A DNA stretch of 64,000 nucleotides from positions 2,744,036-2,808,035 of the forward strand of contig CP060501.1 in the NCBI GenBank assembly GCA_024760545.1. Reading direction: 5' to 3'. A model generated the notes under the pieces. The model did no database searches. It saw only the letters and a program-made list of their open reading frames with translations, and was not told the origin of the DNA. The stretch's first letter is position 1. Every line of letters begins with the position of its first letter. The stretch comes from Nitrospira sp. GTDB taxonomy: Bacteria > Nitrospirota > Nitrospiria > Nitrospirales > Nitrospiraceae. The translations under genes and the position numbers were made by a program. This document shows, piece by piece, positions 61,139-63,588 of this stretch.

Positions 61139-61564
61139 ATGGGAAAAAGCTTAAAGGGGACAAAGAGTCACGACAATCTCAAACATGCGTTTGCAGGGGA
61201 ATCACAGGCCAACCGCCGGTATCTCTATTTTGCCCGGCGTGCGGACATTGAGGGCTATCCGGACGTCGGCGGGCTGTTTCGAGACACCTCGGAGGCTGAA
61301 ACCGGCCACGCCTTCGGACACCTGGATTTCTTGAAAGAGGTCGGAGACCCGGCGACAGGCGTGCCGATGGGCAACACGGACGCGAACCTCAAGTCCGCCA
61401 TCGAGGGCGAAACGTACGAATACACGCAAATGTATCCGGGAATGTCCAAGACCGCACGGGAGGAAGGGTTTCCTGAATTGGCCGAATGGTTTGAAACCCT
61501 GGCGAAGGCCGAACGGTCCCACGCCAATCGGTTTCAGAAGGGACTGGATACTCTGAAGGCCTAA
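61139..61564 (+). CDS. rbr: Rubrerythrin-type diiron protein
   Basis: 141 aa from ATG 61139, preceded by AAGGAGGAGAACGAC. Four-helix diiron ferritin-like core with Glu/His ligands in [46 protein letters not shown] and [12 protein letters not shown]. It lacks the C-terminal rubredoxin domain of full rubrerythrins, so electrons must come from a partner, perhaps the downstream Fe-S protein. Likely peroxide reduction in the cytoplasm. Confidence 0.93.
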
Positions 61565-61587
61565 CAGCCTGCGTATGTGCTCACCTT

Positions 61588-61651
61588 CAGCGGTCAGTTT
61601 TCGGCGACGTGGCGTGAATTCGTCGGCGAAAGCTGGCCGCTGATCGTTTTT
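61588..61651 (+). terminator. Long hairpin with T-tract between rubrerythrin and the Fe-S gene
   Basis: Arms 61588-61609 and 61621-61642 pair over 22 positions (19 Watson-Crick, two G-U, one mismatch) around an 11-base loop, followed after four bases by TTTTT (61647-61651). That is an intrinsic terminator. The T-run runs directly into the ribosome site TGGAG of the next gene (ATG 61665), so it could attenuate the downstream genes. Confidence 0.65.
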
Positions 61652-61664
61652 GGAGAAGCGAATC

Positions 61665-62945
61665 ATGAAAGGTCTCAGTCTCATCGCACCGGTCGATCCC
61701 AAGCAATTGGAGAAGGAAACGCTACGAATCTACGAGGTCTGTGACGGGTGCCGGCGCTGCTTCAATCTCTGTCCATCCTTCAACACCTTGCTGGATCGAA
61801 TTGACGTGTACGAAGGTGATGTGGCCAAGCTGACTCCAGCCGATCATCATCAAGTTGTCGACGAGTGCTATTACTGCAAACTCTGTTTCAACCATTGCCC
61901 CTATACTCCGCCACATCACTACCAAATCGATTTCCCGCACCTGATGGTCGCGTGGAAGAAGCGTCTCGCCGCAGAACGCGGTGTCCGGTGGCGGGACCGC
62001 CTGTTGATCATGACGGATACTATTGGACGACTGGGCAGCGTGACGGCTTCCATCACGAATGCGTTGTTGGGCAACCGACTGGTGCGCCGTATTCTTGAAC
62101 AGGTGGTAGGAATTCATCAAGACCGCCGTCTGTTGCACTTCTCTCGCGAAACGTTTCCCCGCTGGTTCGACCGTCGAACGAAGACGGCAGCGGCTGATCC
62201 CCCCACCCGCAAGGTCGCGTTGTTTTCCAGTTGCCTCGTGAATTATCAGGCGACCGATGTCGGCAAGGCGACGGTGCAGGTGCTGGAAAAGAACGGCATC
62301 CACGTCGTGGTGCCGGAGCAACGCTGTTGCGGGATGCCGAGTTTTGATATCGGTGATACCCAGGCCATTCAAGAAGCTGCTCGAAGCAATGTCGCGTCAT
62401 TGTACCCATGGGTCCTCAAGGGGTACGATGTAGTCGTCCCGACCGCCAGTTGCAGTTTGATGCTGAAGCGAGAATATCCGGAGCTTCATCGCGATGAGCA
62501 GACCAAACAGGTGGCCGAGCGAACCTTCGACGTCTGCGAGTATTTGATGGCGATGAAAAAAGCCGGCCATTTGGCGACCGATTTCACCAAGAAGCCGGGA
62601 CGCGTCGCGTATCAGATCCCCTGTCACCTCAGGGATCAAAATATCGGGTTTAAGTCCAAGGAACTGATGGAATGTGCGGGCGCTCAAGTCGAGCTGATCG
62701 AACAGTGTTCGGGACACGACGGGGCCTGGTCCGTCAAAACGGAGTTTTTCCCCTTGTCGATGAAGATCGCCGGCAAGGCCGTGCGGGCGATCGAGCAAAC
62801 ACCGGCCAACCTCGTCGCGTCGGACTGCCCATTGGCGGGGTTACAGTTGGAACAGGCCGGCGCGTCGGCCAATGCGGGGGAAAAAACCGTCCTGCATCCG
62901 ATTCAGATCGTCCGTGACGCGTATGGGCTATCCTCACAACAGTGA
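61665..62945 (+). CDS. HdrD/GlpC-like Fe-S oxidoreductase
   Basis: About 426 aa from ATG 61665 (TGGAGAAGCGAATC upstream). Two [4Fe-4S] motifs, CDGCRRCFNLC (C26, C29, C32, C36) and CYYCKLCFNHC (C68, C71, C74, C78), followed by a CCG domain with QRCCGMPSFD and a second CSG site (EQCSGHDGAWS). This is the heterodisulfide-reductase-D/GlpC type. It could pass electrons to rubrerythrin. Neighbouring DUF3501 is the usual companion of such genes. Confidence 0.92.
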   Translation: MKGLSLIAPVDPKQLEKETLRIYEVCDGCRRCFNLCPSFNTLLDRIDVYEGDVAKLTPADHHQVVDECYYCKLCFNHCPYTPPHHYQIDFPHLMVAWKKRLAAERGVRWRDRLLIMTDTIGRLGSVTASITNALLGNRLVRRILEQVVGIHQDRRLLHFSRETFPRWFDRRTKTAAADPPTRKVALFSSCLVNYQATDVGKATVQVLEKNGIHVVVPEQRCCGMPSFDIGDTQAIQEAARSNVASLYPWVLKGYDVVVPTASCSLMLKREYPELHRDEQTKQVAERTFDVCEYLMAMKKAGHLATDFTKKPGRVAYQIPCHLRDQNIGFKSKELMECAGAQVELIEQCSGHDGAWSVKTEFFPLSMKIAGKAVRAIEQTPANLVASDCPLAGLQLEQAGASANAGEKTVLHPIQIVRDAYGLSSQQ

Positions 62946-63003: not shown

Positions 63004-63588
63004 GTGAAAACGATCACATTCGGCGATGTCATCCCGCACGAAGAGTATGAACGGCAGCGAGAAGCTTTTCGCGCGAACATCATCGAATTGAAGCGGCGGC
63101 GCCGACTCTCGATCGGCCCGTTGATCACCGTCGTCTTCGAGAATCGTGAGACGCTGCAATTTCAGATTCAAGAAATGATCCGAACCGAGCGCATTGTCGA
63201 CCCACTCAAAGTGCAAGATGAGCTGGATGTATACAACGCCTTGCTGCCGCATCCGAACGAACTGAGCGCGACCCTCTTGATCGAAATCACCGACGAAGCC
63301 ACGATAAAAGAAAAGCTCGATCAATTCATGGGACTGGATCACGGAGAGAAAGTGGCGATCACTGCCGGCGGGGAAGAAGCCTTCGGAGAATTCGAAGGTG
63401 GCCGAAGCCATGAGACGAAAATCAGCGCGGTTCATTTCGTCAGGTTTCACCCGACTGCCTCGATGAGAGCGGCCTTTGCGGATCTCACTCGGCCGGTGAC
63501 GATTCGAGTGAACCATGGCGGGTACCATCAGGAGGTTCCCGTACCGGGCAGCATGAGGGAAGAGTGGCTCGCCGATTTACGCGCCTAA
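63004..63588 (+). CDS. DUF3501 family protein
   Basis: 194 aa from GTG 63004, preceded by GGTTAGGGGGTCAACA. Family landmarks: the N-terminal MKTITFGDVIPHEEYERQRE, FENRETLQFQIQEMIRTERI and the closing helix MREEWLADLRA. Function is not established, but the gene almost always lies beside rubrerythrin and an HdrD-like gene, as here, 58 bases after the Fe-S gene. Confidence 0.92.
   Translation: MKTITFGDVIPHEEYERQREAFRANIIELKRRRRLSIGPLITVVFENRETLQFQIQEMIRTERIVDPLKVQDELDVYNALLPHPNELSATLLIEITDEATIKEKLDQFMGLDHGEKVAITAGGEEAFGEFEGGRSHETKISAVHFVRFHPTASMRAAFADLTRPVTIRVNHGGYHQEVPVPGSMREEWLADLRA

Follow-up and report, generated by a model that had tools for sequence, protein, structure and literature searches.

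The window analyzed here, a 64,000 nt stretch of a 4.8 Mb Nitrospira genome, carries on its forward strand a rubrerythrin gene (rbr, 141 aa, positions 61139–61564; Pfam PF02915, 2.2e-30) in which no rubredoxin domain was found and whose protein sequence is identical in Nitrospira sp. BO4. It is followed by RFO (426 aa, 61665–62945; CCG domain PF02754, 2e-18, and 4Fe-4S domains), which the original prediction had called an HdrD-like gene, by a DUF3501 gene, the third of the cluster (63004–63588; PF12007, 2.1e-62), and by a PTPS-family gene that continues past the window edge; all gene starts are our own calls. The assumption that these genes form a conserved cluster held, as rbr, RFO and DUF3501 are adjacent and correspond to the ‘aerobic-type’ rubrerythrin cluster described in PMC5114695, from which we take the name RFO. 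That study places the genes of the cluster in oxidative-stress defence; the idea that the three work together rests on the co-localisation reported there.

Between rbr and RFO, 22 nt downstream of the rbr stop codon, lies a hairpin (61587–61643) of 22 pairs with a calculated energy of −39.8 kcal/mol, in which a left arm of 23 nt (61587–61609) and a right arm of 23 nt (61621–61643) enclose an 11 nt loop (61610–61620). The stem is interrupted by one G.G opposition and is separated by a TCG spacer (61644–61646) from a TTTTT run (61647–61651), two corrections to the original prediction, which had rightly proposed a 22-position hairpin followed by TTTTT between the two genes. It had also described the T run as abutting the RFO ribosome site, and in the window the final T is indeed the T of TGGAG; GGAG (61652–61655), as seen in the sequence, is the likely RFO ribosome-binding site, and the RFO ATG is at 61665. 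This closeness is not conserved, since another clade (e.g. L033) has ~50 bases between hairpin and start. Folding of a 90 nt segment gave −45.6 kcal/mol (z = −5.3), a value equaled by 0 of 200 shuffles. The stem-loop is thus stable and GC-rich and lies in transcribed RNA, as expected for an intrinsic terminator, and its position between same-strand genes of one cluster is that expected of an internal terminator; where such an element would have a U tract directly after the stem, TTTTT follows here at a distance of 3 nt, and a T run is missing in some other clades.

Across 464 kb of the same genome (the window plus 20 stretches of 20 kb each), this hairpin obtained the top score, 51, with a runner-up of 45; among locally shuffled controls, one score reached at least 42 and none reached 46. 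A generic terminator scan did not list the hairpin because its 11 nt loop exceeds the limit of 8 set by the tool, and the scan found 11 terminators compared with 12.5 expected from shuffles. Hairpins of −20 kcal/mol or better are present in 18 of 158 same-strand gaps of the window's genome (rbr–RFO included), 4 of 58 divergent-gap readings and 8 of 72 convergent gaps. We also applied a terminator score, d, which follows the terminator literature in combining hairpin energy per length with a weighted T tail. The score is positive in 9/158 same-strand gaps (again with rbr–RFO), 0/58 divergent-gap readings and 2/72 convergent gaps, and the low convergent figure shows that d has little sensitivity in this genome, also in gaps in which a terminator could be expected.

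We collected rbr–RFO pairs from named contigs, from genomes of the genus, family and order, and, via DUF3501, from genomes of the class and phylum. Of a set of 20 stretches from the DUF3501-based search, 15 contain the pair; L192, L194 and L195 gave an RFO match without an rbr match, and L193 and L196 gave neither. The 172 loci reduced to 130 distinct gaps, 110 of which reach −20 kcal/mol or better with their hairpin, compared with 17.5% of 2540 dinucleotide shuffles, and 82 of which are terminator-like (d > 0), compared with 1.7% of the shuffles, with the reservation that related sequences are not independent in these counts. The score could be computed for 122 of the 130 gaps, and the 48 gaps that are not terminator-like include the 8 unscorable ones. 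The tracer stops at bulges of more than 4 nt and at hairpins of more than 90 nt; the hairpin counts are a lower bound, with the well-folding L015, L064 and L070 and the long L048, L062 and L074 all scored low. In a matched control of 80 named relative loci, restricted to gaps of 50–200 nt, hairpins of −20 kcal/mol or better were found in 68/77 rbr–RFO gaps compared with 30/180 other same-strand gaps, and terminator-like scores in 48/77 compared with 13/180. Some genomes (G053, G079 and G052) carry a second, diverged rbr–RFO pair with a short gap. Among such paralogous short-gap clusters, the hairpin is missing from L072/L183 and L167 and present in a third, L184. A plasmid search for RFO returned 128 records, every one below 60% identity; one Burkholderia stretch from this search has a gap that folds well, but we discarded it, as 12 of 20 shuffles reach its terminator score.

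The window's clade provided 36 distinct sequences, in which 98.1% of 775 stem cells are paired; slid registers, the control for this stem, pair at 21–57%. Four pairs have changed on both sides, and 8 of the 22 pairs never vary, although the clade rows were selected with a motif spanning the arms, and part of the invariance at those arm positions comes from that choice. Column shuffling, which we regard as weaker evidence, reached the paired percentage in 8, the two-sided changes in 2 and the covariation score in 26 of 500 trials. Two distinct gaps with an RFO at least 83.5% identical were dropped by the motif, namely L011, with 17 Watson-Crick, 4 G-U, 0 A-C and 1 other pair and with TCGTTTTCG after the stem, and L165, a fragmentary RFO of a different genus next to a dissimilar gap; the inverted L015, described below, was also dropped.

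Variation within the clade's stem is lopsided, with 125 G-U cells over 12 pairs compared with 4 A-C cells over 4 pairs. A DNA palindrome would show no G-U excess, so within the window's clade selection acts on the hairpin structure at the level of the rbr-sense RNA. The outer arms are nearly perfectly symmetric, as might be expected of an operator or another protein-binding palindrome acting at the DNA level, but the tolerance of G-U and avoidance of A-C on the transcribed strand (125 vs 4) already speak against such an element, which we consider extremely improbable. We extended the count to Watson-Crick-chosen stems (118 of 127 rows), a choice that does not favor G-U, and found 198 G-U and 34 A-C over all groups, 64 and 25 without the window's group, and 25 and 1 in the GGGTGGG-type group; two other hairpin groups lean in the opposite direction (1 G-U vs 2 A-C, and 2 vs 6).

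Downstream of the stem, TTT (61648–61650) is invariant in 36/36 aligned clade relatives, and the 9 bases that follow the stem include at least 5 T in 32/32 clade relatives. The rbr–RFO gaps of several distant relatives contain textbook terminators, whose T runs are 5 to 8 nt long in L173, L181, L182 and L186, while in L175, L178 and L179 TTTT comes immediately after the stem. Strong hairpins without a T run are present in some clades (L040, L042, L043, L052 and L059; L051, L054 and L056). We also noted, in the clade of L040, L042, L052 and L059, a C-rich stretch (ACCTCCCCCCATG) before the RFO start and no evident Shine-Dalgarno sequence.

Since some clades are without the T tract, the alternative that the hairpin stabilizes or processes the mRNA has to be taken seriously. 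Such an intercistronic hairpin would not terminate transcription; it would block 3´ exonucleases after cleavage between the genes, and the rbr mRNA would outlive the RFO-DUF3501 mRNA. Consistent with this possibility, the hairpin is kept more widely (110/130 gaps) than the terminator-like score (82/130), several clades have strong hairpins with no T run, and mostly T-less heptad hairpins found elsewhere between same-strand genes, described below, would fit as well. The invariant TTT and the T-rich positions after the stem in the window's clade point the other way, as do the textbook terminators of distant relatives, and on balance we regard stabilization or processing without termination as rather unlikely.

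The sequence of the hairpin is less conserved than its position. Using a local-alignment cut-off, we sorted the gap sequences into 34 groups, 10 with two or more members, a grouping that may split heptad-like hairpins differing in filler bases. On an RFO protein tree (FastTree, 111 of 127 rows, long branches flagged), the gap groups need at least 29 changes, the ‘terminator-like’ label switches at least 17 times, and TCAGCGG-type and GGGTGGG-type hairpins alternate inside one clade. What is kept at the rbr–RFO gap, to judge from these comparisons, is a strong hairpin in place and not its sequence. The hairpin pattern of the window's clade occurs in 24/77 genomes with one site each, and 23 of the 24 sites adjoin RFO; the remaining genome, G146, is outside the set of genomes from which rbr–RFO loci were taken. 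With one site per genome, adjoining RFO in 23/24, this hairpin was rejected as a dispersed repeat. The GGGTGGG-type hairpin of another clade occurs in 15/77 genomes, likewise with one site each, 13 of the 15 adjoining RFO and the sites away from it being G068:C55 and G069:C223. A REP-type repeat would require many near-identical copies, and the window's genome (G000) has a single copy of the hairpin.

Two further observations concern rearrangements at this site. In the gap shared by L116 and L015 (G046:C18:26486-26542), the 57 nt hairpin is wholly inverted, while the flanks and the T run are unchanged in orientation; the inverted stem shows a single A-C opposition and lacks G-U pairs altogether. 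In L048, L062 and L074, an extra long palindrome with GTTTGTTTGG-type repeats is present inside the rbr–RFO hairpin, giving gaps of ~180 nt.

The original prediction had drawn two alternative consequences from a terminator inside the cluster, transcript attenuation and unequal expression, and the first, taken as regulated attenuation, has no support. Given that the cluster genes belong to oxidative-stress defence (PMC5114695), an attenuator or riboswitch-like element sensing peroxide, oxygen or iron could be imagined. However, only one hairpin, and no competing structure, appears in the consensus fold of 32 relatives. From clade to clade the hairpin sequence is exchanged for another, which would be unexpected of an element constrained by a sensor or antiterminator. 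Rfam also returned no family at its cut-off, the best hit being a microRNA family at E = 2.1, and we consider a regulated element very unlikely. A second small hairpin in the window pairs the T run with the ribosome site. We set it aside as it is absent from the consensus fold and its partners differ or are missing in some relatives. It may nevertheless be real, as in 17/32 relatives at most 10 of 100 tail shuffles fold as well as the tail, although in 4/32 at least 75 of 100 do.

We think it likely, though far from certain, that the hairpin is a leaky intrinsic terminator inside an rbr-RFO-DUF3501 operon, giving more rbr than RFO-DUF3501 mRNA. Favoring this reading are the rank of the hairpin, its conserved position, its single copy in this genome, the G-U bias, the invariant TTT and the textbook terminators in distant relatives. 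We counted against it the weak U tract, which begins 3 nt past the stem, the strong hairpins without a T tract in some clades, the limited reach of the G-U excess, which is not general, and the paralogous L072/L183 and L167 without the hairpin. Transcription would start upstream of rbr, and the hairpin, forming in the nascent RNA, would together with the short displaced U tract free part of the polymerases after rbr, the remaining polymerases continuing into RFO and DUF3501. The outcome would be an excess of rbr mRNA over RFO-DUF3501 mRNA. The short rbr mRNA would probably also be shielded by the hairpin that remains at its 3´ end. The operon start, termination and its efficiency, and the ratio of the two transcripts are predictions from sequence features.

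That the terminator would be leaky is suggested by the layout of the cluster. Only 21 nt separate the hairpin from the RFO start codon, which leaves no room for a promoter, so that RFO needs either readthrough or a promoter further up, for example inside rbr; leakiness is the simplest reading because complete termination would shut off both downstream genes. A generic scan found no sigma-70-like match on the forward strand between 59049 and 63887, but this is weak evidence because no match was obtained upstream of rbr either, where a promoter is expected. The second consequence drawn in the original prediction is therefore retained in qualified form, as the kept hairpin, the RNA-level selection in the window's clade and the textbook terminators of distant relatives support a terminator-like element and, hence, probably higher expression of rbr than of RFO-DUF3501. 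If this is correct, it would suggest a need for rbr in excess over RFO and DUF3501, both of presumed role, and how much rubrerythrin is made relative to its presumed electron-transfer partners would be set by an RNA element that is retained by selection despite repeated replacement of its sequence. The rbr–RFO gaps would then also form a natural series well suited to studying the tuning of terminator strength. In a title search covering few subscription journals, we found no published title on a terminator in the rbr-RFO-DUF3501 operon or, for Nitrospira, on the transcript ratios of rubrerythrin.

REP/BIME-type intercistronic palindromes are stable hairpins between operon genes that can protect the upstream mRNA. 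The rbr–RFO hairpin resembles them in being stable and in lying between genes of one operon, and differs in its single copy, its clade-specific sequence and its T run conserved within the clade. A closer parallel to a leaky terminator is provided by the internal intrinsic terminators described for ABC importers of Ruminiclostridium cellulolyticum (PMC9045158), which lie between substrate-binding-protein and translocator genes, have measured termination of 20.7–96.1%, and possess longer stems and fewer U than canonical terminators. As for those elements, the rbr–RFO stem-loop comes right after the first gene of the operon, its stem is long and GC-rich, its U tract is poor, and the expected effect is more upstream than downstream mRNA. 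In contrast to them, it belongs to another phylum and other genes, its termination is predicted where theirs was measured, and it holds the same place in a single operon despite changes of sequence. PMC5114695 covers the gene content and phylogeny of the rbr-DUF3501-RFO cluster, and the word ‘terminator’ has 0 occurrences in its main text. We regard the rbr–RFO hairpin as a well-supported candidate for a new case of internal terminator, in which a kept position would be combined with sequence turnover.

The left arm of the window's hairpin can be read as three heptads of the TCAGCNN kind (TCAGCGG, TCAGTTT and TCGGCGA) followed by CG. With somewhat less certainty, the arms thus seem to resemble a worn (TCAGCNN)n heptad hairpin; the likeness was noticed post hoc and would serve as a lead, not as a test. 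The arm is not an exact member of the class, which we defined by at least three exact TCAGC heptads, as it has TCAGC, TCAGT and TCGGC in phase, and the one match to the exact three-heptad pattern in G000 lies away from the hairpin, at C1:221032. Exact (TCAGCNN)3 arrays were found in 60/77 Nitrospira genomes, compared with 4 matches in 3 genomes for the pattern read backward, and in 58/148 phylum genomes with up to 149 matches per genome, overlapping matches being counted separately, compared with 15 matches in 8 genomes for the backward control. As hairpins, (TCAGCNN)n heptads occur in 31/77 genomes, with up to 18 forward matches per genome and 0 in the control. We found no published description of dispersed (TCAGCNN)n heptad arrays at title level; a table row in PMC12306157 (RepRanger) counts palindromic elements of N. 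moscoviensis.

The heptad phase of the arms, the dispersal of (TCAGCNN)n arrays in many Nitrospirota and the lively site apparent from the long palindromes of L048, L062 and L074 and the inverted L015/L116 hairpin raise the possibility that the hairpin has no function between rbr and RFO and is a palindrome of the mobile or repeat kind, either REP-like or a worn heptad hairpin. We give this possibility very little credence, given the single copy here, the one site per genome of the clade pattern with 23/24 adjoining RFO, the RNA-level G-U bias and paired-base conservation, and the retention of a hairpin at the same place by unrelated sequences.

A leaky terminator could nevertheless have such an origin. 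We tentatively raise the possibility, which we hold to be less probable than not, that the terminator was built from phylum-wide dispersed (TCAGCNN)n hairpins, which are often located in gaps between same-strand genes. In the window's lineage, the heptads of the rbr copy would have become irregular and its GCTTT-like outer end would have become the U tract; the rbr–RFO gap would then be a record of repeated terminator birth and replacement. Under a constant demand for unequal expression, a T-less intercistronic hairpin would thereby turn into an internal terminator. Should dispersed heptad hairpins influence the expression of operons, they might do so generally in many Nitrospirota. We located 24 heptad sites in 20 hand-picked stretches (L260–L279, including all 18 G053 array matches), of which 19 lie among same-strand genes, either in a gap or at a gene end, and 3 fall within predicted genes; a divergent and a convergent setting account for 1 each. 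We claim no enrichment in same-strand gaps because these are common anyway, making up 109 of 150 gaps of 50–200 nt (26 convergent gaps counted in). By eye, L268 alone of the 17 heptad segments folded has a stretch of four consecutive T a short way past the stem.
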